Assembly: GCF_017355785.1 (NCBI RefSeq)
Contig: NZ_JAFEWE010000002.1
Span: forward strand, 298,618 to 362,617
Direction of reading: 5' to 3'
DNA: 64,000 nt
DNA from: Desertivirga arenae
GTDB taxonomy: Bacteria > Bacteroidota > Bacteroidia > Sphingobacteriales > Sphingobacteriaceae
Notes under the pieces: generated by a model
What the model was told of the DNA's origin: nothing
Seen by the model: only the letters and a program-made list of their open reading frames with translations
Databases searched by the model: none
Program-made: the position numbers and the translations under genes
Shown: positions 13,326-52,520 of the stretch, piece after piece
How the letters are laid out: every line of letters starts with the position of its first letter
How positions within the stretch are numbered: position 1 is the first letter of the stretch

Positions 13326-14465
13326 ATGCCATATTTTTCGAGCTTCAACCCTATGGAGCGAGCAGTAAATATTTTAAGTGCGGTATTCGATAGTTTCGAC
13401 GATGTGTGGTTCTTCGTTTCTCCCGACTACTACATTAGATATTTTAATCAAAAGGCCGCCACCAATAGCAGAATCTTTCATAACTGCGAGCTTAAGCCAG
13501 GGGACAGCATCCTTAGCTTTGCCCGTGATACTCAGAATAAAGTCGACGAACGCTTTGTAGCAAGTTTTAAAAAGGCATTAAGAGGAGAAATCATAAAAGT
13601 TGAAGATCATGTAGTTTATAACTCAACTTCTATCTGGACCCGAACAAAATATACCCCAGTATTCGAACACGGACAATTACTAGGAATTTCACTATTAATT
13701 GAAGACATAACTCCACAGAAACAGATTGAGGAAGAGCGAAATAAGCAACAAGAGGAGATTATAACCATTTCCTCAAGGACGCAGGAATTTGTGAACATTG
13801 CCAGTCACGAACTAAAAACTCCACTTACCAGCCTGAAAGCTTCCCTTCAAATTATCTCAAAACTCCTTGACAAGAAAATAAATATTACAGAAATAAAGCG
13901 GTTTATAGACAAATCAAACCTTAGCGTTACCAAGCTTCAAAACCTTATATACATTCTTCTTAGTGCGAACCGGATTTCCGAAGGCGAGCTTAAGTTAAAA
14001 AAGCAACACTTTAATCTCTACCAACTACTGGAATCCTCTAGCGAGCCCCTTATACTTGACGGCAAATATGAAATAAGAATTGAAGGGCCACGGGATCTCG
14101 TTGTTTATGCTGATCGGGATAAATTGGATCATGTGATTACCCATATGCTAAATAACGTTGTGAAACACGCGCCGAAATCAGATCATATAATACTACGTTT
14201 CGAAGAACTTAGTGCATCGGTAAAAATTTCTGTTCAGGATTTCGGCCCTGGTATATCAAAAGAGAAAGTCCAGCATGTATTCAAACGGTACTTCCAGGGT
14301 GAAACTAAGAACAGCAATTCAGGCATGGGTTTAGGGCTATATATTGCTGATGGAATAGTAAAAGAGCATGAAGGTGAGATCGGTGTAGACACAGAAAAAG
14401 GAAAAGGAAGTGTATTTTGGTTCACCCTGCCAAAGCAAGCTAAAGAAGCCGGCGAGCCTCAATAA
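13326..14465 (+). CDS. PAS-domain histidine kinase
   Basis: A 379-residue soluble sensor kinase with no membrane segment. An N-terminal PAS-like domain (about 12-130, ending in LLIEDITPQKQIEEE) feeds a coiled coil. HisKA follows with the phospho-His161 in ASHELKTPLTS. The HATPase has an N-box (HMLNNVVKHAP), a G1 box (DFGPGIS) and a G2 box (GMGLGLYIADGIV). It overlaps the convergent receiver-Crp/Fnr gene by seven bases at their 3' ends, so the two are neighbours rather than an operon; a functional pair is possible. An orphan terminator lies directly upstream. Confidence 0.9.
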   Translation: MPYFSSFNPMERAVNILSAVFDSFDDVWFFVSPDYYIRYFNQKAATNSRIFHNCELKPGDSILSFARDTQNKVDERFVASFKKALRGEIIKVEDHVVYNSTSIWTRTKYTPVFEHGQLLGISLLIEDITPQKQIEEERNKQQEEIITISSRTQEFVNIASHELKTPLTSLKASLQIISKLLDKKINITEIKRFIDKSNLSVTKLQNLIYILLSANRISEGELKLKKQHFNLYQLLESSSEPLILDGKYEIRIEGPRDLVVYADRDKLDHVITHMLNNVVKHAPKSDHIILRFEELSASVKISVQDFGPGISKEKVQHVFKRYFQGETKNSNSGMGLGLYIADGIVKEHEGEIGVDTEKGKGSVFWFTLPKQAKEAGEPQ

Positions 14466-22312: not shown

Positions 22313-22747
22313 ATGTTTACTGAAAGTAACATCTGGTGCATAATTACATTGAGTACAGGAATAAAAGACCTTTGTGCGGCATTGTCAGCGAACATACTCG
22401 CGGAAGGATTTTTGTCCAGAACGAGTAACACACTTACTGGCCTATGCGTCTTTTCCAGAAATAATAATCTTATTCTCGTTGAAGGAGATAAAGAGAAAGT
22501 GCACGAATCCTATCAAAAATCAAAGAAAAATCCCTACCATCATAGTATCATTAAGATTTACGATGGCCCTGTTCCCTTCCGTTGCTTCGAAGATTACCCT
22601 TTAGCATTTAAGGCCCTTGCCCCAAGTATTTATAAAGAGCTCGACACCTTTAAAACTCCCGGGCAATTGGAATACTTTGAAGAATACCTTAAAATAGATC
22701 ATATCTCCTCGATTCTGGTTAAGAACTTTATTATCAATAATAGTTAA
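22313..22747 (+). CDS. BLUF-like protein lacking flavin-contact residues
   Basis: 144 residues. The order of elements follows BLUF blue-light sensors: an N-terminal strand (WCIITLSTG), a helix, NTLTGLCVFSRNNNLILVEGDKEKV, then SIIKIYDGPVPFRCFEDYPLAFKAL. Canonical BLUF domains use a Tyr in the first strand, an Asn before the GITG-like turn, and a Gln in the F-x-Q-x-L-E-G strand. Here these read Thr12, Asn39 and Ile54, so the photochemical Tyr-Gln pair is gone. It may be a non-photosensory descendant of the fold. It is separated from the beta-barrel gene by 91 bases. The alignment is by eye. Confidence 0.6.
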   Translation: MFTESNIWCIITLSTGIKDLCAALSANILAEGFLSRTSNTLTGLCVFSRNNNLILVEGDKEKVHESYQKSKKNPYHHSIIKIYDGPVPFRCFEDYPLAFKALAPSIYKELDTFKTPGQLEYFEEYLKIDHISSILVKNFIINNS

Positions 22748-24841: not shown

Positions 24842-26356
24842 ATGCAGGACATTATTAATTTTTTTTCAGATATCTTCTCTACTGAATTCTGGCCGGCCCG
24901 CTGGAACTGCGGTTTATGGACAGACTTTCACGGTTGGCTCTATATTATAGCAGAATTAATGATTTGGGCTGCCTATTTCGCCATTCCCTTTCTATTGTTC
25001 CGTATCATTTCTCAAAGAAAAGATCTGCCCTTTTCAAAAATAGTCTGGCTATTTATTGCCTTTATCCTGCTCTGTGGATCTACACATCTCATGGATGCCC
25101 TTATATTCTGGTGGCCCGCCTACCGCTTTAGCGCGCTTCTGAAGTTCATCACCGGTGTGGTTTCTCTTTTCACTGTCTACGCCCTTTATAAGATCATGCC
25201 TCAGCTTCTACACCTGCGAACCTCAGAAGATCTTGAAGCTGTTTCCGAAAAAAGAAGAAAAGCAGAATTGCAGTTCTCTAACGTCTTCAACTTTTCGGCA
25301 GTGGGAATGGCTTTAGTCTCTGCTGAAGGAAAATGGCTAAGGGTCATCAAGGCTGTCCTCGACTTCCTGGGTTATACCGAATCAGAGTTACTGGAACTTA
25401 ACTTTCAGCAGATCACACACCCCGAAGATCTTGTTGATGATGAAAAAAACATCGAGATGATGCTCTGCGGCGAAATAAGAAGCTACCAAATGGAGAAACG
25501 GTATATCAAAAAAGATGGGAGCATCTCCTGGGCTTTACTTACGGTATCGCTGGTGAGGAATGAAGACGGGACTCCCGATTTTTTTATTTCTCAGATAACG
25601 GATATCAACAACAGTAAGAAGCTGATCAACACCATCGACCTGATGAACAAGAAGGACGAGTTTATGACGATCGCTGCTCACGAACTGAAGACTCCTATTA
25701 CAAGTGTTAAGGGCGCCTTGCAAATTGTAGAGAGCAATCTAAGAAGATCAGAAGATGGCGGAAAAAACCAACCCTTCATAGAGATAGCTAACAAGCAAAT
25801 TAAAAAATTAACCTGGATAGTGAACGATCTCCTGGATGTAACGAAAATTCAAGCAGGAAAACTCCTTATCAATATTGCTTCATTCCAGGTGCAAAGCCTC
25901 ATAGAAGAAGCAATAGATCAGGTACGTTACGAGAAGAAGGAAAGAGCTATACAACTGGAAGGCGATCTGTCAGCCTTTATAGAGGGCGACAAAGTGAGAT
26001 TGGAGCAGGTATTAGTTAATCTACTAACCAACGCAATCAAATACTCCCCTAAAGGAGGAGACATCCTGATCAGGGTAGAATACTTGGAAGAAAAGCTACG
26101 AATATCTGTAATTGATCAAGGTATCGGGATAGATCCTGATAAGATCCCCTTACTCTTTCAGCGGTTTTTCAGGGTCGAAAACACTTCGCAGAACTTCTCA
26201 GGATTAGGAATGGGATTATACATCTCCTCGGAGATCATTAAAGCTCACGATGGGGAGATTGGTGTTGAGAGTAAAATGGGAGAAGGAGCAACTTTCTGGT
26301 TTAATCTTCCCTTAAAGACAAAAACCATCCCGCCTATCATCCTATTAGCCAATTAA
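24842..26356 (+). CDS. histidine kinase with an ethylene-receptor-like membrane sensor
   Basis: 504 residues. Three membrane helices (about 32-125) match the ethylene-binding domain of plant ETR1 and cyanobacterial receptors: WAAYFAIPF, then FIAFILLCGSTHLMDAL, then VVSLFTVYALYKIMPQLL. The residues that hold the copper cofactor in ETR1 (Cys65, His69) are present as Cys78 and His82. ETR1 Tyr32, Ile35, Pro36 and Ile62 correspond to Tyr45, Ile48, Pro49 and Ile75. ETR1 Asp25 appears as Glu38. A PAS domain (about 143-258), HisKA with His280 (AAHELKTPITS), and an HATPase ending GLGMGLYISSEII follow. No response regulator adjoins. Ligand is inferred, not shown. Confidence 0.9.
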   Translation: MQDIINFFSDIFSTEFWPARWNCGLWTDFHGWLYIIAELMIWAAYFAIPFLLFRIISQRKDLPFSKIVWLFIAFILLCGSTHLMDALIFWWPAYRFSALLKFITGVVSLFTVYALYKIMPQLLHLRTSEDLEAVSEKRRKAELQFSNVFNFSAVGMALVSAEGKWLRVIKAVLDFLGYTESELLELNFQQITHPEDLVDDEKNIEMMLCGEIRSYQMEKRYIKKDGSISWALLTVSLVRNEDGTPDFFISQITDINNSKKLINTIDLMNKKDEFMTIAAHELKTPITSVKGALQIVESNLRRSEDGGKNQPFIEIANKQIKKLTWIVNDLLDVTKIQAGKLLINIASFQVQSLIEEAIDQVRYEKKERAIQLEGDLSAFIEGDKVRLEQVLVNLLTNAIKYSPKGGDILIRVEYLEEKLRISVIDQGIGIDPDKIPLLFQRFFRVENTSQNFSGLGMGLYISSEIIKAHDGEIGVESKMGEGATFWFNLPLKTKTIPPIILLAN

Positions 26357-30531: not shown

Positions 30532-30945
30532 TCAGGATCCAAAAAAAGTACTCCTCCGGGTTTCAGCAATGATAGACTCTAAAGTAGCCGGCGTTAAAGG
30601 TTTATAATAAACGCCCTTAACAGCCGAAAAAAGCCCAGAACGCGACTTAATATCCGGGTCATCAGAAGCAGTAATAATAAATACAGGTATATCCCGTGCT
30701 ATTAAGCCCTTCAGATTTTCAAACATCTCTAAAAAATCCCAGCCACTCAAATCGGGCATAATCAGATCTAGTAAAACAACACCCGGCAAGGCCTGACTGC
30801 CATAATAGGCGTCTACAATGTCGGTAATAGCGGTTTTAGGATTAGTATAGCATTTCAGATCATCAAAAAAGCTATACCGTTTCATTAAGGTTTTCGCGAC
30901 ATGATGAAAGCTCGTTTCATCATCAATAAGAATAATTTGGGGCAT
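30532..30945 (-). CDS. single-domain response regulator
   Basis: 137 residues, receiver domain only. All key residues are present: acidic pair in LIDDE (Asp8, Asp9), phospho-Asp60 in VVLLDLIMPDLSG, the Thr in IITASDD, and Lys in YYKPLTP. A 12-residue insertion near DAYYGSQALPG lengthens the alpha2-beta3 region. It is divergent from the PAS kinase at 31117, which makes that kinase its probable phosphodonor; with no output domain it would act by protein-protein contact or as a phosphate shuttle. Confidence 0.85.
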   Translation of the reverse strand: MPQIILIDDETSFHHVAKTLMKRYSFFDDLKCYTNPKTAITDIVDAYYGSQALPGVVLLDLIMPDLSGWDFLEMFENLKGLIARDIPVFIITASDDPDIKSRSGLFSAVKGVYYKPLTPATLESIIAETRRSTFFGS

Positions 30946-31116: not shown

Positions 31117-32931
31117 TTGCATCTTACAGATAAGATTTTTAGAAAAATAGTTGAGCTCTCTCCCTTTCCAGTTTACGTTTGTACAGGTAAGGAAATGATT
31201 ATTACTGTTGCAAACGAAGCTACCTTAAAGGCTTGGGGAAGAGACAATAGTGTAATCGGGAAACCTTTCCCACTTGCCTTGCCCGAACTGCATAACCAGC
31301 CTTTTACAGATTTAATCAGGCAAGTACTTGCCACAGGCGAAACTTACTATTCTAAAAATGACAGGGCCGATCTTTTTGTGGACGGCAGGTTACAAACCTT
31401 CTACTTCAAGTTCACTTATCAGCCTCTGCATAACGAGGAGAACGAGATTGAAAGCGTTCTATGCTTTGCTACCGATGTAACCGAGCTGGAGCGCTCACGC
31501 CAGGAGGTTGAAAAGAACCGGGAAATACTATATAATATGATCCACCAGGCCCCCGTAGGGATCTGTATAATAGCCAGGGAGGAATTAATAGTGCAGGTGG
31601 CTAATGAATCGTACCTGGAAGTCGTCGGACGAAAAAGAGAAGATCTTGAGAATAAGCCGATCTGGCTGGCTGTTCCGGAGGTTAAGGATCTCTATGGACC
31701 TGTCCTTTCGGAGGTGTTTAATACTGGCGTTTCATTTAGAGCCAGTGAACATGAGGTACCTCTCGTGCGAAACGGGCGCTCAGAAAATGTTTACCTCGAC
31801 TTTGTTTATGAACCCATCACAGATATCAACGGAGAAATCACTTCAGTCATGGTTATCGCCATCGACGTTACCGAAAAAGTATTATCAAGGCGTAAGATCG
31901 AGGAGGCTGAAGAACGGGCTCGCTTGGCTATAGAAGCAGCTGAGATCGGCACTTTTGCCTTTAATATAATTACCAATGAAGTAAAAGGATCTGATCGCTT
32001 TAGAGCAATATTTGGATACACCGAGCATGCAGAAAGAGAGCAATTAGTTGCTCGTTTTCATCCGGATGATCTGGAAGGGAGGCGGCTTGCTCACGAAGCA
32101 TCATTAATAACAGGAAAGCTTTTATATGAAGCTCGGGTTATCTGGGAGGATCAATCCGTTAGATGGGTAAGAATTAATGGTAAATTAGATTTCAGAAATA
32201 ATAAACCCGTTAGGATATTAGGGACAGTACTTGATATAACAGAGTTTAAACAATTGCAGCAACAAAAAGACGATTTTATAAGCGTTGCAAGTCACGAACT
32301 GAAAACCCCTATGACCACCGTTAAGGCTTCCATGCAGGTTTTGGAACGCTTGGTAAGCAGCGAACCAGGATCAGACCGTGTACCACAATTTGTAGGCAAG
32401 GTAAACACAAGCCTAAATAAAATGCAACATCTTGTAGAGAGCTTATTGAACGTTTCAAGAATAACAGCAGGACAATTTCATCTGAACTACACCCGCTTCA
32501 GGTTAGCAGATCTGATCAGCGATTGCTGTGATTATATTACCATGACGGGCGATTACACAGTACAGCTAAGCGGAGAATTAGATGCAGAAGTTTTTGCCGA
32601 CCGGTATAAGCTGGATCAGGTGGTAAATAATTTGATCAATAATGCAGTAAAATACGCTCCCCAGTCCAAGCTGATCAGGATCCATTTAGAAAACTGTGGT
32701 GACTTCCTAAGATTGGAGGTACAGGACTTCGGACCCGGGATTCCGGAAACGAAAGTTCCCCATCTATTCGACCAGTACTACAGGGCCGACAGTTCAGGCT
32801 ATCAGTACTCCGGTTTAGGATTAGGGCTGTATATCTGTGCGGATATCATTAAAAGACATAAAGGAGAAATAGGGGTTGAAAGTAAAGAAGGGATGGGCAG
32901 CAAATTTTGGTTCACTTTGCCTGTATTGTAG
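31117..32931 (+). CDS. triple-PAS histidine kinase
   Basis: 604 residues, cytoplasmic. Three PAS domains (about 8-125, 135-255 and 265-378; each ends in a D-(V/I)-T-E motif) precede HisKA with His393 in ASHELKTPMTT. The HATPase has N-box NNLINNAVKYAP, DFGPGIP and GLGLGLYICADII. The start is a TTG at 31117: the frame is closed by TGA at 31099 and the first PAS domain needs these residues. It is divergent from the lone receiver at 30532. The kinase core closely resembles those at 13326 and 24842, indicating local paralogues. Confidence 0.9.
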   Translation: MHLTDKIFRKIVELSPFPVYVCTGKEMIITVANEATLKAWGRDNSVIGKPFPLALPELHNQPFTDLIRQVLATGETYYSKNDRADLFVDGRLQTFYFKFTYQPLHNEENEIESVLCFATDVTELERSRQEVEKNREILYNMIHQAPVGICIIAREELIVQVANESYLEVVGRKREDLENKPIWLAVPEVKDLYGPVLSEVFNTGVSFRASEHEVPLVRNGRSENVYLDFVYEPITDINGEITSVMVIAIDVTEKVLSRRKIEEAEERARLAIEAAEIGTFAFNIITNEVKGSDRFRAIFGYTEHAEREQLVARFHPDDLEGRRLAHEASLITGKLLYEARVIWEDQSVRWVRINGKLDFRNNKPVRILGTVLDITEFKQLQQQKDDFISVASHELKTPMTTVKASMQVLERLVSSEPGSDRVPQFVGKVNTSLNKMQHLVESLLNVSRITAGQFHLNYTRFRLADLISDCCDYITMTGDYTVQLSGELDAEVFADRYKLDQVVNNLINNAVKYAPQSKLIRIHLENCGDFLRLEVQDFGPGIPETKVPHLFDQYYRADSSGYQYSGLGLGLYICADIIKRHKGEIGVESKEGMGSKFWFTLPVL

Positions 32932-40538: not shown

Positions 40539-43500
40539 ATGGATACTATAAGACCGGAAAGTACAGAACAATTCCTCTCCGGCGGAGGAGAAATGGGTAA
40601 ACTGATCCGGTCAATGGACTGGTCAAAAACAGCATTAGGGCCAGTAGAAACCTGGCCGCAAAGTTTGCGTACCTCCGTCAGCCTTTGTTTGTCTTCCACC
40701 TTTCCAATCCTGATTGCCTGGGGTCCTGAAACTATTCAAATCTATAACGACAGTTACCGGCCAATATGTGGTGCAAAACATCCTGAATCGATGGGTCAGA
40801 ACTTTCGCATTTGCTGGGAAACTGCCCTTCCTGTAGTGGGAGATGCTTTTGATCGCGGACAACAGGGCGAGGGAACTTATATTAATGATCAGCGTATGTT
40901 CCTCGACCGCTATGGTTATTTGGAAGAAGCGTTCATGACCTTCTCCTTTGCTCCTATCCGGGATGAAAGTGGTGGGGTTGGAGGGATATTCCACCCTATC
41001 ACAGAGACGACGGTTAAAATGCTTGCAGGTCGGCGTACACAAGCTCTGCGAGATCTGGGAGCCGCTATTGGAAAGGCCAAAAGCGTGCAGGAGATCGGAA
41101 ATATCGCCTCGGAGAAGTATAAAGAATATGTCCTGGACGTTCCCTTTATGCTCTTCTATCAATTCGATAGTGAGACTAACAGCGCCATCCTTGTAAGTTC
41201 TGCAGGGCTTGAGCCAGGTTCAACTCTATCTCCTCCGAAGATAGATTTGATGGAAAACTCCCATCCTACCTGGCCCCTATCGAACGTACTTCATACAGCA
41301 GAGATGCAGGAAGTAACGGGTCTGGCCGAACGTTTCGGAGCCTTCAGCTGCGAACCCTATCCTGAACCACCAAAATCAGCAATGATCCTTCCTGTTAAAA
41401 TTTCAGGTCAATCCGAGCTATTCGGGTTTATAGTAGCAGGTGTTAGTGCAAGGCGTGCTCTTGATCAGGAATACCTGAACTTTTACGACCTTTTGGCGAA
41501 CACCTTCAACACCGCTGTTTCTAACGTATACGCTTATGAACAGGAACAAAAGCGAGCTGAAGCCCTGGCAGCCATAGACCGCTCCAAGACAGCCTTCTTC
41601 AGCAATGTAAGTCACGAATTTCGAACTCCACTCACGCTAATGCTTGGGCCGCTGGAAGATCTGCTGAGCAGGTCTTCGTTACCAGAGGAGATCAAAGAAC
41701 CCATAGAAGCAACCCATCGAAACGCCCTCAGGCTCCTTAAACTGGTTAATAATCTTTTGGATTATAGCCGGGTGGAGGCAGGACGGGTGCGAGCCTCTTA
41801 TCAGCCCTTAAACCTGGCTGAACTTACTGCCGATCTTGCCAGCAGTTTCCGTTCTATCATTGAAAAAGCGGGAATGAATTTACAAGTGGATTGTAACCCT
41901 ACCGCCGACACCACCTTTGTAGACCGGCAAATGTGGGAAAAGATCGTACTTAACCTGCTTTCCAACGCTTTTAAATATACTTTGGAAGGCGAAATCAACG
42001 TTGGCCTCAAGCAGGAGAATAAATTCGCGGTACTAGAGGTACAGGATTCCGGTGTAGGTATTCCTGAAAAAGAATTGCCGCACATGTTCGAGCGTTTTCA
42101 CCGGGTGGAGAATTCTGCAGGTCGCACCCATGAGGGATCAGGCATTGGCTTATCTCTTGTCCATGAGTTGGTCCACTTACATGGAGGAGAAATAAGTGTT
42201 GATAGTGTAGAAGGCAAAGGTAGCGTCTTTAGGGTTAAGATCCCAGTAGGCAAAGCTCATCTCCCTTCAGCACAAGTAGTCGAAACGGAGAAAGCCAGTG
42301 GCTCCAATGCTTTAAAAGGAGCCTTTTTACAAGAAGCATATAGTCTCCTACAGGAAGAAACTCATACCCAGGTTCCAACAGAATTCATTACCAATACAAG
42401 TAACGTTGGTTCCCAGCTGGATTTTAGTGAAGATAAACAAACACTTATCCTGGTTGTGGATGATAATGCCGATATGCGTGCTTATTTGAAACGTCTGCTG
42501 GAACCCTATTTCAGTTTGCAGACTGCAGTGAACGGACAGGATGCACTAACGAAGATCGCAGAGGTCAAACCAGACCTCGTACTGAGTGACGTGATGATGC
42601 CCGTATTAGATGGGAAAGGAATGCTTCAACAGATCAGGCGACAAGCTTCTACTTCAGCACTTCCGGTGATCTTCCTATCAGCCCGCGCCGGAGAAGAAGC
42701 CCGTATTGACGGATTAGAAGCAGGTGCAGACGATTACCTGGTAAAACCATTTTCAGCCGCCGAGCTGCTGACCAAGATCAGAGCGCAGATCAAAATTTCG
42801 AGGGTCAGGATGCTGGCGGGGCAAAAACTCCGGAGTATGTTACTGAAGGCTCCGGTAGCCATTGCTATATACCGTGGGCCTGATCACATTGTTGAAATGG
42901 CCAATTCTCTGATGCTCGAATACCTGGGAAGAACAATGGAGGAAGCGCTCGACAGGCCAATATTGGAGGTCGTACCCCAGTTCAAGCCGCAGGGCTTTGC
43001 CAAGATAATGGATAGTGTTTATAATACTGGCACCCCCTTTGTTTCCGGAGATCTGCCGATACAGATCATTCGTTCAGACCGGGAAGAAACGGTATATGTA
43101 AACCTTACCATGGAAGCTTTGAGACAGGATGACGACACCATTTATGGTATTATTGCGGTGGCTGCTAATGTAACAGAGCAGGTAAACGCCAGGAAGGAAT
43201 TAGAAAAGGTGAACGGAACCTTAGAGTTAGCAATGGAAGCTTCCGGAATGGGAACCTGGCGTAAAAAAGAGGGTAACAATGCCTTATATATTTCAAAACG
43301 GGCAAAGATTATCCATGGTATTCCTCTGGATGTTGAATTAAGCTTTCAGGATACTGCAAATGTTATAGTTCCGGAACATCGGGACCGCACGTTGAAGGCT
43401 ATTTATAAAGCCATCGAAAAAAAGGGCCGGTTTAATGAGGATTATCAGATCCAACCCTATGATGGCAGCAAACGAAAATGGATCAATTCAACGGGCAAAG

Positions 43501-44270
43501 TCGAATTAGATGAAAAAGGCGAAGTTAAATCAGTAGTGGGAACCATTCTTGATATAACAGAATCCAAAGAAGACGAGATCAGGAAGAACACCTTCATCGG
43601 AATGGTTAGTCACGAGTTAAAAACTCCGCTCACCTCATTGAATGGATACGCTCAATTACTAAACCTTCATGCAAGTAAGACCCATGATGATTTTGCAAAA
43701 GATAAAGTGCAGCGAATTCTCGGGCAGGTAAAAAAAATGAGTACGCTGGTTAACAGCTTTCTGAATGTAAGTCGCCTGGAAGCTGGCAAAATCCAGCTTA
43801 AAAAGGACTATTTTTCCTTGGAAGGATTAATAAGCGAAATTATTGAGGAATATAAGGTCTTGAATTCAACCCACATCATTCACTTTAATGGGACCAACTG
43901 TCCTGAAATAAGCGGCGACAGGGATAAGATCGGCAACGTGTTATCTAATTTAATCAGTAATGCGATAAAATATTCTCCCGGCAGAAAACAAGTTTGGGTT
44001 GAATGTGAGATACTGGAAGGCTTTATTACAGTTTGTGTTAAAGACGAGGGTATTGGCATTAAGACGGATGATCTGAATAAACTGTTCGAACCCTATTATC
44101 GTGTTGAGGGTCAGAATACTGAACATATAGCCGGCTTTGGTATAGGCCTTTACCTTAGCGCCGAAATTATCCGAAGACATAACGGTAAGATCTGGGCAGA
44201 GAGCGATCAGGGAGCGGGGTCTACATTCTTCTTTAGCCTTCCGGTGGGGAATGAGGGAGGGAAGGAATGA
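40539..44270 (+). CDS. dual-core hybrid histidine kinase
   Basis: 1243 residues with two complete kinases in one chain. Order: PAS-like sensor (18-160), GAF-like domain (about 165-335), HisKA with His359 (VSHEFRTPLTL), HATPase (NLLSNAFKYT, DSGVGIP, GSGIGLSLV), receiver with Asp684 (VLSDVMMPVLDG) and Lys736, two PAS domains (about 765-880 and 890-1010), a second HisKA with His1025 (VSHELKTPLTS), and a second HATPase to the end. No membrane segment and no DNA-binding domain. The receiver between the cores could let the first kinase gate the second. The last six codons fall in a microsatellite. Confidence 0.9.
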   Translation: MDTIRPESTEQFLSGGGEMGKLIRSMDWSKTALGPVETWPQSLRTSVSLCLSSTFPILIAWGPETIQIYNDSYRPICGAKHPESMGQNFRICWETALPVVGDAFDRGQQGEGTYINDQRMFLDRYGYLEEAFMTFSFAPIRDESGGVGGIFHPITETTVKMLAGRRTQALRDLGAAIGKAKSVQEIGNIASEKYKEYVLDVPFMLFYQFDSETNSAILVSSAGLEPGSTLSPPKIDLMENSHPTWPLSNVLHTAEMQEVTGLAERFGAFSCEPYPEPPKSAMILPVKISGQSELFGFIVAGVSARRALDQEYLNFYDLLANTFNTAVSNVYAYEQEQKRAEALAAIDRSKTAFFSNVSHEFRTPLTLMLGPLEDLLSRSSLPEEIKEPIEATHRNALRLLKLVNNLLDYSRVEAGRVRASYQPLNLAELTADLASSFRSIIEKAGMNLQVDCNPTADTTFVDRQMWEKIVLNLLSNAFKYTLEGEINVGLKQENKFAVLEVQDSGVGIPEKELPHMFERFHRVENSAGRTHEGSGIGLSLVHELVHLHGGEISVDSVEGKGSVFRVKIPVGKAHLPSAQVVETEKASGSNALKGAFLQEAYSLLQEETHTQVPTEFITNTSNVGSQLDFSEDKQTLILVVDDNADMRAYLKRLLEPYFSLQTAVNGQDALTKIAEVKPDLVLSDVMMPVLDGKGMLQQIRRQASTSALPVIFLSARAGEEARIDGLEAGADDYLVKPFSAAELLTKIRAQIKISRVRMLAGQKLRSMLLKAPVAIAIYRGPDHIVEMANSLMLEYLGRTMEEALDRPILEVVPQFKPQGFAKIMDSVYNTGTPFVSGDLPIQIIRSDREETVYVNLTMEALRQDDDTIYGIIAVAANVTEQVNARKELEKVNGTLELAMEASGMGTWRKKEGNNALYISKRAKIIHGIPLDVELSFQDTANVIVPEHRDRTLKAIYKAIEKKGRFNEDYQIQPYDGSKRKWINSTGKVELDEKGEVKSVVGTILDITESKEDEIRKNTFIGMVSHELKTPLTSLNGYAQLLNLHASKTHDDFAKDKVQRILGQVKKMSTLVNSFLNVSRLEAGKIQLKKDYFSLEGLISEIIEEYKVLNSTHIIHFNGTNCPEISGDRDKIGNVLSNLISNAIKYSPGRKQVWVECEILEGFITVCVKDEGIGIKTDDLNKLFEPYYRVEGQNTEHIAGFGIGLYLSAEIIRRHNGKIWAESDQGAGSTFFFSLPVGNEGGKE

Positions 44271-44403: not shown

Positions 44404-47181
44404 CTAGGTTGTTGGCTCACCTACTTCTGTTAAAAGCTTCATTAGCTCCTCCAGTTTAATTGGTTTTGTGGTAAAGCTATCCATACCTGCCTGTAAACAA
44501 GCGTCGCGATCTTCGGAAGATGCATTGGCAGTCATGGCAATGATCTTTGGCTGCGTTATCTCCATCGTTCTGATGATCCTTGTAGCTTCAAGTCCATCCA
44601 TATCAGGCATTAAAACGTCCATAAAGATCAAGTCGTAAAGTTTTTCTTTACAGATAGCGACTGCTTCAACCCCGTTGTTTGCAATATCTATCTGATAGCC
44701 CAGTTTATTCAATATCCGTACAACCAGCTTTTGATTGATCAGATTATCCTCGGCTAGTAAGATCCTAAGCGGATATTGCAGTGCGAAATCCTCCGAAAAA
44801 ACAAGTCGGGGCTTCTTAACCTCAAGTTCTTTACTATCTGCACTGTTCTTAGCTAATTCATCCTGTAGCATATTATATAAAACACACTCTTTGACAGGTT
44901 TGGTTATAACTGCAGAAAATAATTGAGAATGCTCAGCACGATCAACCTCTCCTACTGCACTCAGCAGGATAAGCGACTGATAAGGGTTCTCACGTTTGAT
45001 GATGTTCGCTAAGCTTACACCGTCCATCTCAGGCATTAATGTCCCTGTTATGATCAGATCGAAATCAGATGGAGTGCCTAACAACTCTAGTGCTGCTTTG
45101 CCCGACTGGCAAACCTCCACCCTCAGGTTCCAGTGCTCCAGTTTAGCTTTCAGTACTTCCAGATAATGAACATTATCTTCCACAATGAGAACTTTTTTAT
45201 TCTCTATGCACTTGATTCTGGCGGGTTCAGGAACAGATGTGCTTGTTACCGGTAAGTATCTTATACTAAAAGAAAACGTACTTCCGAGGCCAACTTTACT
45301 TTGCACACTAATATCCCCACCCATCAGGTTTACCAGGCGTTCTGAAATAACCAGACCTAAACCAGTGCCACCGTATTTGCGGGTGGTAAAAGCATCTACC
45401 TGAGAAAATGCTTTAAACAAACGAGAGATCTTATCTTCAGGAATTCCAATCCCTGTGTCGATAACATCGAAGATTAATTCCTCAACATGCTCTCCTTTAC
45501 CCTGTAAACCAACTTTAACAAACACCTCACCGGCAACAGTGAACTTAATTGCATTATTGATCAGGTTAATAAGTACCTGACGTAAACGGTGGCTATCCCC
45601 CGTTATAACAGGATGAATAGCGGGATCAATAGTGTAGATCAGATCGAGCTTCTGTGCTGCTGCTTTAACCGCAAAAACATCCATCACAGATTCAATGCAT
45701 TCGCGCAAATTAAACTCATGCTGATCCAACTCCAGGTGTCCGGCTTCGATCTTAGAATAATCTAAAATATCGTTGATCAACTCCAGCAACGCATCACCGC
45801 TTTTAGCAATGATCTCCGTATACTCTTCCTGTTCGCTATTAAGGGAAGTCGATTTTAACAGCTTCGTCATACCGATCACTCCATTCATAGGAGTTCTTAT
45901 CTCGTGACTCATTGTTGCTAAAAAAGCACTTTTGGCTTTATTAGCCTTGTCAGCATTTTCTCTCTCAATGTTCAGGAGTTTATTAAGCTCCTGCAGGTTT
46001 TCCGTTTGGGCCGTTAACTCTTCCGATTGAGCCTGCAACTCCTCATTAAGTGCCTGAAGTTCCTCTGCCTGATCCTGAATAGTTTTTACCGAGCGCTTAA
46101 GTTCAGAAATATCCTTTGCAATCGTATGAACGCCTATAATAACATCATTAACACGCACAGGAACCTTGGTAATAATAAAATTATAAGAAGCGCCGGTTTT
46201 AGGACTTATAAGCTCCTGCTCATAATAAATGGACTGGCCATTCAATACTTCCTGCAACTTTTCTTTCGCAAATGCATGCTCAGAAGGCTTAAGGTAATCC
46301 GTATAATGGGTATTAATTATTTCTTCTTTCTTCCTTCCATAAGAGGCAAGCGCTGCCTGGTTTATATCGAGTATAAAACCTTTGGCATTCTGAAAATAGA
46401 CCAGATCCGGGTTGTTGTCAAAAAGAGAGCGGTACTTCATTTCATTTTGTTTAGAATGAAATTCCTTCTCTTTCCGCTCCGTAACATCTCTTGTATTGCA
46501 GATAAAACCGTTAATATCCGGAGTATTTAAGTGATTAGCCACTAATGTTTCTACCCATATATAGTTACCGTTACGACAACGGATACGATAGTCTGTAGAT
46601 TGAGCATAGGTTTTAACATGCACTTCTTCCCAAAGCGGAGCCATCTTCAAAGCATCCTCCGGATGCACAAAGTCAAATATGCTCAAGCCCTCCATTTCTT
46701 CCAGCGTATATCCCAGAATAGCGGTAAAGGAAGGGCTTATATAAATCGGGCGGGCCTGACGATCCAGAAGTGAGATTACATCGGTACCGTGCTCAACCAA
46801 ACGTTGAAAAAGAACTTCCTTTTTCTTAGCCTCCTCTTTTATTTTTACCCAGTCTTGTATGTTCCTGGCAGTAAACAAAACACCTTGTTCCTCTTTCACA
46901 TGTACTGCAGTCCAGCTATAGGGCAAGTAAAGTCCATTCTTATGTTTGAGGGTAAGATGTCCTTTAGAACTTATGAACTCATTACTTGAAAAGTTCGAAA
47001 GAAGCTCCTTGAACGATGCCAAATCTCCTTCCTGAACCAATTCCAGCAAATTTAAGCCCTCAATATCTCCTACCTGGAAACCTAAATGATCAGCAACAGA
47101 GAAGCTGCATTCACGTATTTTACCACAATTATCAAAATAAAGGACAAGGTCGGGAGAATATTTCAGCGCACTTAAAGCCAT
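44404..47181 (-). CDS. hybrid histidine kinase with two receivers, the first degenerate
   Basis: 925 residues from the ATG at 47181. The frame is open 37 codons further, but the PAS region starts right after this Met ([17 protein letters not shown]). Order: three PAS domains (to about 365), a heptad coiled coil ([19 protein letters not shown]), HisKA with His426 ([12 protein letters not shown]), HATPase ([26 protein letters not shown]), receiver 1, receiver 2. Receiver 1 reads [14 protein letters not shown], with Gly713 where the phospho-Asp belongs. Receiver 2 is intact (Asp855 in [13 protein letters not shown]). No HPt domain is visible. It is divergent from the PAP2 gene. Confidence 0.9.
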
Positions 47182-47334
47182 CAACACTTTTTCTATGTAA
47201 AAGAGGCTTATACGAATGCCAGCAGCAGAAGGTTGTTGCTTAAACAACAATAAAAATCCTTCCGCCTTAAACCTGTCAGCAAACATTTGCACCCACTTTC
47301 AGCTTTAATTGCAGGGCTTCTAAAAACGAGAATT

Positions 47335-48042: not shown

Positions 48043-50424
48043 ATGGATTCAGTCGAAAAGCAAAGGATACAGTGTTTGAAAGCCTACGGTATTTTAGACA
48101 CAAGCGCAGAACAGCAGTTTGAGGGGCTGGTTGAACTGGCTGCATATATTTGCAAAACGCCTATCGCCCTGGTTTCCTTTGTCGACGAGAACCGGGCCTG
48201 GTTTAAAGCGAAAGTGGGCTTGGATGTATGTGAATCATCCCGGGAGATCGCCTTCTGTAATTACACAATTCAGAATAATCACCTGTTGGAAATCCAGGAC
48301 ACGTGTGCAGATCAGCGTTTCGCAAGCAATCCTTTAGTAACTGCAGAACCTTTTATCAGGTTCTATGCTGGCTATCCCGTTACAGCTCCCACAGGTGAAA
48401 ATATCGGCACCCTCTGTGTTTTAGATTTTGAGCCGCGCCAGCTGGATGAAATGCAAAAGAAAGCTTTAAAGGTTTTAGCCGGAGACGTTCTTGCCCATCT
48501 GGAAAATAGAAGGAAGAATACACACCTGCATGAATTGCTGCGCGAAGCCAGGGAATTCCATAATCTTTTTAATAACTCTTCCGAAATCCACTGCATTACC
48601 AATGCAGAAGGGACTATCGAGTTTATCAACGATTCGATCTCCGGCTTACTTGGCTACGAGGCGAAAGACGTTTTAGGAGTTAATATATGGAGTTTCTCCT
48701 TAGAGGGAGAACGAGAACGCGTAATGCCAGCCCTATATCAACAAATAGAGAGCGGAAAAAATCAGTTCCAGATAGAAACCCAGGTATTAACTAAAGACGG
48801 CCGCGTAAGGTGGTTTGAATGGTCTGATGTGATCAAAGACGGGAAATGGCTGGTAAATGGCCGCGATATTACCGAAAGGAAGGCAAGCGACTCCCATATT
48901 AAAGTGCTGTCAGTAGCTGTAGAAAAATCAACTGCCGGTGTGGTGATCAGAAACACGGAAGGCGTTGTGGAATGGATGAACCAAGCTGCAGAGCGTATTT
49001 TTGGCTACTCGTTAAATGAGCTTCAGGGGAGAGTTTTTGGCGACATGCTGATCGGAGAAGGAACAGACATGGCTGTTCTAAGCAAAGCGAGACAGCTTAT
49101 GGCTGAAAGAAAGCCCTATGAGCTGGAATTTTTAATTTATAAAAAGGACCGCACACCCGCCTGGGTATTTATTTCCAATAATCCTCTTTTTAAAGACGAT
49201 GGGCAATTCGACCGCCAGGTAGGCATAGTAGTTGACATTACGGAAAGAAAAATAGCCGAGCAGCAATTGATCAAATCGCGCGAAGATGCCATTGGGTTAA
49301 GCAAAGCCAAAGAAAACTTCCTGTCGGTAATGAGTCACGAAATGAGGACCCCTCTTAACGCGGTTATCGGTATGGCAAGGATTTTAAAAGAAGAGGATCC
49401 CCTGGAAAGACAGCTCTCTAACCTGAGTATTCTCGAATTCTCCGCCAATAATCTACTGACCCTCATTAACGACGTTTTAGATTTCACGAAAATAGAAACC
49501 GGAAATCTGGAACTGGAAAAAGTTCCGGTAAAGATCAAAGAACTCGGAGAAAAAACCATCGAGTCTTTACAGTTCAAGGTGAAAGACAAGCAAATAAATT
49601 TGCGTCTGGAAGTAGATCCGAATGTTCCGGACCTTGTAGAAGCTGACCCTACCCGTTTGTATCAGATCTTTATGAACCTGCTGGGGAACTCGGTGAAATT
49701 TACAGAAACGGGAGAGGTGGTACTAGCCTTAAAATCAGAAAAAACGGAAGGCAAAAACGTCAGCATAGGCTTTGAGATCAGAGATACTGGTATTGGCATT
49801 GCCGCGGATAAGATCAGTTCGATCTTTGACGCCTACTCGCAAGCAGGATCAGATATCAGTCGCAAATATGGAGGGACAGGTTTGGGACTGGCAATCACCC
49901 AAAAACTCATCCATCTGCATGGCTCGAAGATTGAGGTCAAAAGCGAACCAGGTAAAGGCACCAGTTTCTCCTTTTCCATAAGCTTTAAGAAGGTAGAGCA
50001 AGCCATTGAAGAAGCGCAAGAATTAGAACTTCCCTTGAAAATTAAAGCCCTGGTAGTGGATGATAATGCCATTAACAGGCTGCTGGCGAAAAAGGTACTC
50101 CAGAAATGGGAAGTGGCCTGTGATTTCGCTGAAGATGGTCTTGAGGCAGTCAATCTAGCTACCAGCCAGCAGTATGATGTAATTCTGATGGATATTCATA
50201 TGCCAAATATGGGAGGCTTCGAAGCAACTGAACGGATCAGGAATTGCGGGGTACTGCCCTTCAGTCAGGTACCGATCCTTGCCTTAACGGGGAGCGTCCC
50301 TAATGGGAATGAAGATAAATTCTTAGCAGCAGGAATGAACGGATATGTTTTAAAACCCTTCAATCCGTTGTCGCTCTATAAGAAAATAAAAGAAATACGG
50401 GTGGATCTGATTAATCAATATTAA
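48043..50424 (+). CDS. GAF-PAS-PAS hybrid histidine kinase
   Basis: 793 residues, cytoplasmic. N-terminal GAF domain (1-160; starts RIQCLKAYGILDTSAEQQF, includes FCNYTI and YAGYPV). PAS at about 170-280 and 285-402, each ending DITERK. HisKA with His432 (MSHEMRTPLNA), HATPase (NLLGNSVKFT, DTGIGIA, GTGLGLAITQ), and a receiver with Asp717 (VILMDIHMPNMGG). The GAF type is the one often seen in bacterial kinases with diverse small-molecule sensing. No partner gene adjoins; output probably via an HPt protein elsewhere. Confidence 0.9.
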   Translation: MDSVEKQRIQCLKAYGILDTSAEQQFEGLVELAAYICKTPIALVSFVDENRAWFKAKVGLDVCESSREIAFCNYTIQNNHLLEIQDTCADQRFASNPLVTAEPFIRFYAGYPVTAPTGENIGTLCVLDFEPRQLDEMQKKALKVLAGDVLAHLENRRKNTHLHELLREAREFHNLFNNSSEIHCITNAEGTIEFINDSISGLLGYEAKDVLGVNIWSFSLEGERERVMPALYQQIESGKNQFQIETQVLTKDGRVRWFEWSDVIKDGKWLVNGRDITERKASDSHIKVLSVAVEKSTAGVVIRNTEGVVEWMNQAAERIFGYSLNELQGRVFGDMLIGEGTDMAVLSKARQLMAERKPYELEFLIYKKDRTPAWVFISNNPLFKDDGQFDRQVGIVVDITERKIAEQQLIKSREDAIGLSKAKENFLSVMSHEMRTPLNAVIGMARILKEEDPLERQLSNLSILEFSANNLLTLINDVLDFTKIETGNLELEKVPVKIKELGEKTIESLQFKVKDKQINLRLEVDPNVPDLVEADPTRLYQIFMNLLGNSVKFTETGEVVLALKSEKTEGKNVSIGFEIRDTGIGIAADKISSIFDAYSQAGSDISRKYGGTGLGLAITQKLIHLHGSKIEVKSEPGKGTSFSFSISFKKVEQAIEEAQELELPLKIKALVVDDNAINRLLAKKVLQKWEVACDFAEDGLEAVNLATSQQYDVILMDIHMPNMGGFEATERIRNCGVLPFSQVPILALTGSVPNGNEDKFLAAGMNGYVLKPFNPLSLYKKIKEIRVDLINQY

Positions 50425-51026: not shown

Positions 51027-52520
51027 ATGGAGATCAGTAAGCACTCAGACTCGACTAACGACAATTTTTTGAGGGATAAGGAGCAGTTTTACAACCAGGT
51101 GTTGCAGAGCATTGAGGAATATGCTGTGTTTACAATTGATATGGAAGGTAGGATCACCAGCTGGAACACCGGTGCGTTTTATCTTTTCGGTTATAGCTCT
51201 ATAGAGATCTTAAACAGAAGTGGCGATATCTTATATACTCCTGAAGATATCGCTGCTCATGTTCCTGAAATGGAAATGGAAGGTGCGCTGCACGAAGGAA
51301 GAGCCGTGAATGAACGATACCATGTAAAGAAAGATAGAAGCCGGTTTTGGGGAAGCGGCCTTGTTTTTCCTCTATTCGATAAAGAGGGCAAACACCAGGG
51401 TTTTACCAAGGTAATGAGAAACATGACCTGGGTGAAGGATACTGAGGAGGAGAACCGGGAAATTAATGCCTTTGCTCACAAATTGGTTTCTACATCCCTG
51501 GAGGCGTTTATTGTCTTAAACCAGGATCTCACGATCAATAACTACAGTGAACCATTCAGAGAGATCTTTAATCTGGAAGAGAAACAATACCGGGGGTCGT
51601 CCATCTATGAGGTTTTAGGGTCGAAAGTGGAAATCAAGGAGCTACAGCTTTTATTTGACACGATTTTAAGCGATAAGGATGCGTATAAGGACTATGAGCT
51701 TCACATTATAACTGGCGCAGCTAAGAAGAAAATCATCAAAGTAGATACCCGCCGCTTTACCATCAATGAAAATGGTAAGCAGGTGCTTATGCAAGCTTTT
51801 GAGGATGTTACAGAAAAAAAGGCTTTGCAGGAGATGAAGGACCTGTTTATCGGTGTGGCGAGTCATGAAATAAAAAATCCGCTCGCTGTGCTCAGGGTTT
51901 ACGCACAGCTTTTGGAAAGAGAATTAAAAGATCATCCGAATGAACGGGTTAAGCAAGCGGTAGACAAGGTCAACGAACACGGCAACCGGCTCATGCATCT
52001 CATATCCCGCCTGCTTGACCTTTCCCGCTTGGAAAACTTTGAGGTGCTGCCTAAGATGGAAGAGTTTGATCTATACGCGCTCGTGCTAAAGGTAGTAGAA
52101 GACCTGAGACTCACCCACCCTAGTCACGAGGTGTTCTTTGACGAGATCATCTCCGAGAGCGTTTGTGCAGACCCGGTTCGAATACAACAAGTGCTGGTGA
52201 ACCTTATTTCCAATGCCATCAAATATTCACCAGGTGCCGACCATATCGTGGTAAGTATAAGACTGGATGATCAAAGAAAAGCGGTAGTGGTTTCCGTCCA
52301 CGACCTCGGCCCCGGCATAAAGGAATCTGAAAAAGAAAAGCTCTTTTCAAAGTTCCAACGGACAGAAAATGCTGTCAAAAGTAAAATTACCGGAGCTGGC
52401 CTTGGCCTCCACATCAGCAAGGAAATTGTCGAGCAGCACGGGGGAGAGCTTTGGTTTGAAAGTACAGAAGGCATGGGGACCTCTTTCTATTTCAGCCTTC
52501 CGCTTGTAGCCTGTCTTTAA
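51027..52520 (+). CDS. double-PAS histidine kinase
   Basis: 497 residues, cytoplasmic. PAS 1 (about 20-137, with the TSWNTGAFYLFGYSS and RFWGSG motifs of the photoreceptor/haem-type PAS_9 group), PAS 2 (about 150-263), HisKA with His280 in ASHEIKNPLAV, and an HATPase (NLISNAIKYSP, DLGPGIK, GAGLGLHISKEIV). The motif reads HEIKNPL rather than the HELKTPL of the neighbouring kinases, so it comes from a different kinase subgroup. No regulator adjoins. Confidence 0.9.
   Translation: MEISKHSDSTNDNFLRDKEQFYNQVLQSIEEYAVFTIDMEGRITSWNTGAFYLFGYSSIEILNRSGDILYTPEDIAAHVPEMEMEGALHEGRAVNERYHVKKDRSRFWGSGLVFPLFDKEGKHQGFTKVMRNMTWVKDTEEENREINAFAHKLVSTSLEAFIVLNQDLTINNYSEPFREIFNLEEKQYRGSSIYEVLGSKVEIKELQLLFDTILSDKDAYKDYELHIITGAAKKKIIKVDTRRFTINENGKQVLMQAFEDVTEKKALQEMKDLFIGVASHEIKNPLAVLRVYAQLLERELKDHPNERVKQAVDKVNEHGNRLMHLISRLLDLSRLENFEVLPKMEEFDLYALVLKVVEDLRLTHPSHEVFFDEIISESVCADPVRIQQVLVNLISNAIKYSPGADHIVVSIRLDDQRKAVVVSVHDLGPGIKESEKEKLFSKFQRTENAVKSKITGAGLGLHISKEIVEQHGGELWFESTEGMGTSFYFSLPLVACL

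Follow-up and report, generated by a model that had tools for sequence, protein, structure and literature searches.

The membrane part of a histidine kinase from Desertivirga arenae recalls the ethylene-binding domain of the plant receptor ETR1, and the question arises whether this protein is built to sense ethylene, or a comparable small ligand, with the aid of copper, and what it means that a glutamate stands where ETR1 carries Asp25. The gene lies in a stretch of 64,000 nucleotides that was analysed as a whole (the window), and an earlier note, made from the letters of that stretch alone, had pointed out the ETR1 pattern and raised plant ethylene as a possible signal. Outside plants, ethylene receptors have been tested in few bacteria, and a literature search found, in the titles and excerpts covered, neither a description of the ETR1_N domain in Bacteroidota nor a binding measurement on a member from that phylum.

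Domain organization of the sensor kinase

The gene and its domains are located as follows:

24842..26356, + strand: sensor histidine kinase of 504 aa with an ATG start (open reading frame and Pfam)
24929..25216, + strand: ETR1_N (PF25487), residues 30-125 (Pfam E=5.2e-33, 113.6 bits)
25274..25609, + strand: PAS, residues 145-256 (PF00989 and PF13426 matches taken together)
25652..25858, + strand: HisKA dimerisation domain, residues 271-339 (PF00512 E=7.9e-13)
25985..26317, + strand: HATPase_c, residues 382-492 (PF02518 E=1.6e-31)

According to Pfam, an ethylene-binding-type membrane domain is thus followed by PAS, HisKA and HATPase. The ETR1 pattern that the earlier note had recognised in the membrane part is borne out by the profile search, in which the match spans positions 2-97 of the 97 profile positions and scores 113.6 bits, where the curated cut-off is 27 bits. 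The output domains named in the same note were found as well, since PAS_3 (PF08447, E=1.4e-11), HisKA and HATPase_c all exceed their Pfam cut-offs; the PAS region is also matched by PF13426 (E=1e-8) and PF00989 (E=1.4e-5). His280, within the motif HELKTP, is the expected phospho-acceptor, and inspection of the sequence revealed NLLTNAIKYS, DQGIGI and GLGMGL, which we take to be the N, G1 and G2 boxes of the HATPase. As the phospho-acceptor motif and the usual ATP-binding boxes are present, the kinase should, by prediction, be active.

The profile search identified this sensor kinase as the one ETR1_N match of the genome. With the whole protein as query, 117 matches were obtained in the same genome and, among the matches listed, all but the gene itself align to the PAS and kinase part. 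Its profile match, its domain order and its conserved copper ligands, which are described below, lead us to assign the protein to the ETR1_N family as a membrane sensor histidine kinase, and we put the probability of the whole mechanism proposed further below, with its predicted Cu(I)/ethylene-type mode of sensing, at roughly 60%.

Residues of the ETR1 binding site and predicted membrane helices

The predicted helices and the residues compared with ETR1 are given below:

24923..25015, + strand: predicted transmembrane helix 1, residues 28-58 (AlphaFold2 helix; hydropathy)
25034..25102, + strand: predicted transmembrane helix 2, residues 65-87 (AlphaFold2 helix; hydropathy)
25121..25213, + strand: predicted transmembrane helix 3, residues 94-124 (AlphaFold2 helix; hydropathy)
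24953..24955, + strand: Glu38, codon GAA, corresponding to ETR1 Asp25 (sequence comparison)
24974..24988, + strand: Tyr45-Phe-Ala-Ile48-Pro49, corresponding to ETR1 Tyr32, Ile35 and Pro36 (sequence comparison)
25064..25087, + strand: Ile75, Cys78 and His82, corresponding to ETR1 Ile62, Cys65 and His69 (sequence comparison)
25142..25144, + strand: Lys101, codon AAG, corresponding to ETR1 Lys91 in the third helix (sequence comparison)

An AlphaFold2 model of residues 1-130, built from 35 rows, reached a mean pLDDT of 93.3 and a pTM of 0.82, and consists of a short N-terminal helix (2-9) and the three long helices 28-58, 65-87 and 94-124. The seven ETR1 residues on which ethylene binding depends are D25, Y32, I35, P36, I62, C65 and H69. 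Six of them are kept in the window protein, each at the position that had been read from the sequence before, and the seventh, Asp25, is Glu38, as had also been noted; Lys101 is a further ETR1 feature that the earlier note did not mention. Counted in residues from one side of the membrane, E38, H82, C78 and K101 may lie at a similar depth. Excerpts of two reports describe seven ETR1 residues as required for ethylene binding (PMC11819568, PMC6586836), and those of the former name Lys91 as a predicted polar partner of D25, mutation of which abolishes binding in ETR1 (PMC11819568). In the excerpts of a 2026 review, natural variants are mentioned, and a receptor with Asn for Asp is described as still functional, with an affinity about 100-fold lower (PMC13012798). 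Our literature search found no test of the Asp to Glu exchange (D25E) with ethylene.

Searches of the PDB with a 43-row profile of the domain returned 0 chains up to E=1, and Foldseek returned 46 matches up to E=10, none of them at E 0.001 or better. Two further residues ahead of the first helix, Cys23 (24908-24910) and Trp26 (24917-24919), do not vary across 43 aligned sequences, and in a set of 107 rows they occur in 105, with the remaining two being gapped there; the position of Trp26 is Met in diverged phage copies.

Conservation of the predicted copper site

For the comparison within the family, 131 rows were extracted from the loci, of which 114 are distinct, with the window row added once and with ORFs shorter than 60 aa, the window's own copies (L001, L133, L155) and the kinase loci L134-L144 left out. 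The copper-ligand Cys is kept in 111 of the 114 distinct rows (exceptions L063, L082 and L090) and the His in 112 (exceptions L090 and the fragment L028), with both together in 110, and the conservation of Cys78 and His82 among relatives, on which the earlier note had made its idea depend, was hence confirmed. The residues at the positions of ETR1 Tyr32, Ile35, Pro36 and Ile62 are similarly constant (Tyr 109, Ile 111, Pro 108 and Ile 108 of 114), and the Asp25 position is occupied by Asp in 99 rows, Asn in seven, Ser in three and Glu in one, with four gaps. The three rows that have lost the Cys, namely L063 (from a Pirellulaceae MAG), L082 and L090, the last of which has lost the His too, are candidates for non-copper versions or false members of the family; BLAST aligns L082 differently, and in that alignment it is also without the His.

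One could imagine that the domain serves Bacteroidota as a sensor of Cu(I) or of another small ligand, such as carbon monoxide or another alkene, with ethylene binding being incidental. Of the ten rows that have Asn or Ser at the Asp25 position, eight keep the Cys and His, the exceptions being L063 and L090, and the record titles of relatives, which also include isolates, name planktonic and pond metagenomes, both of which would fit this view. However, the Tyr, Ile, Pro and Ile retained in 108-111 of 114 rows are not obviously needed by a pure copper site, and a Pfam scan of nine flanking proteins revealed no copper gene. As such, we regard this explanation as unlikely. Judged by the residues it shares with the family, the window protein most likely works like an ethylene receptor with copper at Cys78 and His82, and it likely binds ethylene.

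The charge pair between the first and third helices

Since four of the 114 rows are gapped at one of the two positions, 110 could be scored for the pair formed by the Asp25 and Lys91 positions. The rows with Asp comprise 53 Asp/Arg, 41 Asp/Lys, three Asp/Leu and two Asp/Gln, those without an acid in the first helix three Asn/Leu, two Ser/Leu, two Asn/Asp, one Ser/Asp, one Asn/Asn and one Asn/Ile, and Glu/Lys occurs once, in the window. The glutamate that the earlier note had seen is therefore rare (one of 110), and while the family as such is known, Glu at this position is the new element, found in no other row examined.

The two positions change together: where the acid is absent, the base is absent too (10 of 10 rows), and where the acid is present, 95 of 100 rows have the base. 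Without L063, L082 and L090, there are 94 rows with acid and base, five with acid and no base, none with base and no acid and eight with neither, which corresponds to a Fisher p of 4e-9 for these 107 rows, a statistic that ignores relatedness. The mutual information of the pair ranks 87th of 6670 column pairs (z 2.85, 107 rows), and the pairs ranked above it look clade-driven. On the tree, the acid changed at least five times and the base at least seven times. Three independent pairs on supported branches differ in the acid, and on average 3.0 of them differ in the base in the same direction. Four independent pairs differ in the base, of which on average 2.9 show a parallel difference in the acid and 1.1 show none. 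These independent-pair tests are too small to reach 0.05. From our point of view, the covariation lends real but modest support to a predicted bridge between the first and third helices, with few independent events behind it.

The nearest row to the window on the tree is L006 (support 88/90, not starred), which carries Asp and Arg where the window carries Glu and Lys. If this relation holds, both replacements, Asp to Glu and Arg to Lys, took place on or near the branch of the window. The exchange keeps the charge and shifts length between the side chains, although, as a single case, it could be chance. The domain sequence of L006 is the same as that of L030, with which the window shares 74% identity in the domain and 43% in the kinase. 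Between the two domains, pN is 0.13 and pS 0.82, the latter being saturated, and since pN is far below pS, the domain is under purifying constraint.

Two other explanations of Glu38 have to be considered at this point. The first is that the receptor is drifting, with Glu38 weakening or abolishing ligand binding and the protein acting via its PAS domain alone. Such a loss would agree with the occurrence of Glu in one of 110 rows, with a window branch of 0.23 against 0.059 for its nearest row and with the absence of the domain from the other two genomes of the genus. Against it speak the low pN, even with a saturated pS, the retention of a charge at either position of the pair and the intact state of the other six residues, and we consider it quite improbable. 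The second is an error of sequencing or assembly, in which GAA would stand for GAT or GAC and hence for Asp. A single third-position base would suffice, but the protein departs from its nearest relative in the preceding residue and in the partner as well (Lys for Arg), and the assembly is listed as 99.83% complete, a figure that reveals little about single bases; an error therefore seems very improbable indeed.

We rather read the charge pair of the window as re-tuned yet intact. Going one step further, it is possible, and proposed here tentatively, that the protein is a working sensor of ethylene or another alkene whose pair was rebuilt from Asp-Arg to Glu-Lys, with a shift in affinity or coupling. 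If this were true, the window protein would be a natural instance of the compensated double substitution predicted by the bridge model of ETR1 Asp25 and Lys91, in which charge and roughly the length of the bridge are kept, and the pairs of Asn or Ser with Leu, Asp or Asn found elsewhere would represent uncharged or reversed forms of the same switch. Occurring in nature, with a basic partner and at the site that governs the ethylene affinity of ETR1, the Glu offers a direct test of the proposed Asp25-Lys91 bridge.

Distribution and possible source of the signal

With PF25487 at E up to 0.001, and in genome samples that overlap one another, the domain was found in 48 of 399 genomes of the family of D. 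arenae (46 over the cut-off), in 21 of 395 of its class (15 over), in 21 of 395 of its phylum (all 21 over) and in 16 of 244 from the class to which G448 belongs (12 over). Loci from named Mucilaginibacter and Pararcticibacter have protein rows identical to those of genomes in the family, in keeping with its assignment to the Sphingobacteriaceae. The profile search detected it in neither of the two other genomes of the genus and in none of 14 control genomes. Some of the matches within the family contain stop codons, including those in G216 and G1099, which are both over the cut-off. The domain is hence patchy in Sphingobacteriaceae and Bacteroidota, as expected of an accessory sensor, and within the Sphingobacteriaceae this patchy spread offers physiological studies a choice of related species that carry or lack the receptor.

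The suggestion of the earlier note that the bacterium could sense plant ethylene did not receive specific support: planktonic and pond metagenomes appear among the record titles of relatives alongside isolates, both congeneric genomes lack the domain, and an ACC deaminase search of the genome stayed below the cut-off; a plant source of the ethylene is only a possibility. That search lent no support to a plant link by gene content, as TIGR01274 gave two matches (one 318-aa frame), both below the cut-off; it also gave matches in six of 14 control genomes, 0 of them over it.

Gene neighbourhood and output partner

When five receiver queries from the window were used with phmmer, no receiver ORF was detected at 2.5 kb or less from the sensor gene, the nearest known receiver gene (30532-30945, - strand) lying more than 4 kb away beside another kinase. 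Among 33 of the 34 named loci (L063 omitted), surveyed by stop-to-stop ORFs, at least 12 have a same-strand receiver ORF that overlaps the end of the ORF with the ethylene-binding domain (EBD) or follows within 100 bases (L035, L036, L040, L042-L046, L050, L052, L054 and L057). The window kinase belongs to the orphan kind, with no adjacent regulator; a cognate regulator encoded next door is the usual arrangement but no requirement, and an orphan kinase can still work. Its PAS domain may take a second signal; PAS was found in five of ten proteins scanned (L034, L035, L041, L050 and L098).

Regarding the history of the gene, a luciferase-like gene of the window is present in both congeners, and a comparison of 15 window genes with its surroundings there (E up to 1e-10) recovered that gene, for G001 also matches between kinases (31-43%), and nothing else. 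With regard to a possible shuffling of the domain onto another kinase, the kinase identity to the nearest relative is just 43%, but among 120 ORFs, 87 of them bearing the EBD, the kinase core of the window protein is about equally close to short EBD kinases (up to 56% identity) and to kinases without an EBD (likewise up to 56%).

Several observations concern the surroundings and other arrangements of the domain. A BLUF (blue-light FAD) protein at 22313-22747 (E=1.7e-7) adjoins the MatE gene located ahead of the sensor kinase, and ORFs resembling PAS or hybrid histidine kinases occur at 13326-14465, 31117-32931, 40539-44270, 44404-47292, 48043-50424 and 51027-52520, of which 31117-32931 was scanned with Pfam and the others were judged by sequence. 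In some Bacteroidota the receptor is split, the domain forming a gene of its own of 159-174 aa that is directly followed by a separate gene for a membrane histidine kinase:

L047:6001-7637: split receptor locus
L049:2910-5033: split receptor locus
L048: short domain ORF alone seen

Kinase-less copies in phages

ETR1_N membrane proteins without a kinase are encoded by two IMG/VR contigs (L156 and L158; 35.8 and 71.4 kb) and by two cultured flavobacterial phages:

L156:2737-3396: IMGVR_UViG_3300024284_000013, ETR1_N E=5.5e-30
L158:4028-4597: IMGVR_UViG_3300028072_000006, ETR1_N E=2.8e-30
L163:5935-6804: Maribacter phage Molly_1 gp065, diverged ETR1_N E=1.5e-16
L164:2435-3304: Maribacter phage Colly_1 gp063, diverged ETR1_N E=3e-16

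The proteins of the two contigs are 66-69% identical and keep an Asp/Lys pair as well as the other ETR1 residues, including the copper ligands. Ten proteins of L156 were scanned: six fall into phage-type families of replication or recombination (DNA polymerase, processivity factor, SSB, UvsX, clamp loader, SbcC/D), one matches a queuine tRNA-ribosyltransferase and three are without a match; the ORF preceding its domain gene had no PHROG match. In L158, the domain gene sits between tail genes and an endolysin gene. The 289-aa products gp065 and gp063, annotated as 'hypothetical protein' and encoded directly upstream of an annotated endolysin, have Asn/Asp at the pair and Ser for Pro and keep the Cys and His. 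Overall, three phage lineages carry the kinase-less domain, with an endolysin gene close by in two of them, and for the Maribacter proteins one could guess at a part in the timing of lysis or in sensing at the membrane.

Viral contigs, scanned with queries from the window, from phages and from bacteria, yielded no lineages beyond these three, and with the window domain as query no phage record was matched. In the main text of the description of the Maribacter phages (PMC8776804), the word 'ethylene' occurs 0 times. The best match of the window model in a viral structure library is A0A8E4UZR7 (289 aa, probability 1.00, E=3.8e-3, TM-score 0.73 over the query), which has the length of the Maribacter phage protein and may be identical to it.

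Proposed mechanism and comparison with known systems

Family membership, domain order, the retained copper ligands, the Glu that no other row shares together with its Lys partner, the covariation of the two positions and the constraint on the domain are results of the analysis. From these we infer the loading with copper, ethylene as the ligand, the bridge, the way in which the signal runs and the regulator that receives it. Cu(I) would be held among the three transmembrane helices by Cys78 and His82, and ethylene or a similar small alkene would bind at this copper. Glu38 in the first helix and Lys101 in the third would form a charged bridge, as has been proposed for Asp25 and Lys91 of ETR1, and a movement of the helices would be passed through the linker and the PAS domain to the HisKA/HATPase kinase, which may then phosphorylate a response regulator encoded elsewhere. 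In favour of this scheme are the strong profile match, the six retained residues, the confident three-helix model, the constraint on the domain and the ethylene binding of AzoEtr1, described below, while the replacement of Asp25, the lack of a receiver ORF close to the gene, the absence of copper or ethylene genes among the flanking proteins scanned with Pfam and the missing domain in both congeneric genomes speak against it.

The likeness to Arabidopsis ETR1 comprises the three-helix domain, the Tyr, Ile, Pro, Ile, Cys and His, and the Lys of the third helix, whereas Asp25 of ETR1 is Glu in the window protein. Beyond its membrane part, ETR1 has GAF, kinase and receiver domains, and it passes its signal on via CTR1. 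SynEtr1 (slr1212) of Synechocystis, by the description given in excerpts, is likewise a bacterial ethylene-binding domain on a histidine kinase, but differs by an extra phytochrome-like light domain (PMC10452086).

AzoEtr1 of Azospirillum brasilense, which according to excerpts of one report binds 14C-ethylene and influences biofilm formation and root colonisation (PMC11819568), shares the order of ETR1_N, PAS, HisKA and HATPase with the window protein, as judged on L098, its presumed orthologue from another strain (ETR1_N E=1.2e-38). The pair of L098 consists of Asp and Lys, in contrast to Glu and Lys in the window, and a receiver ORF overlaps the 3' end of L098, whereas the window gene has no adjacent regulator.

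Closer in taxonomy are the short EBD-HisKA kinases found in the family and near it:

L003, L014 and L022: short EBD-HisKA kinases
L031: short EBD-HisKA kinase from a MAG
L032: short EBD-HisKA kinase of Mucilaginibacter
L053: short EBD-HisKA kinase of Pararcticibacter

L003, L014, L022 and L031 are 60-71% identical to the window protein in the domain and 54-56% in the kinase core, and L030-L033 and L053 resemble it in having no adjacent same-strand receiver ORF. These short kinases, however, measure about 390-425 aa against 504 aa, lack a match to the window PAS and carry Asp with Arg at the position of the pair at which the window protein carries Glu with Lys.
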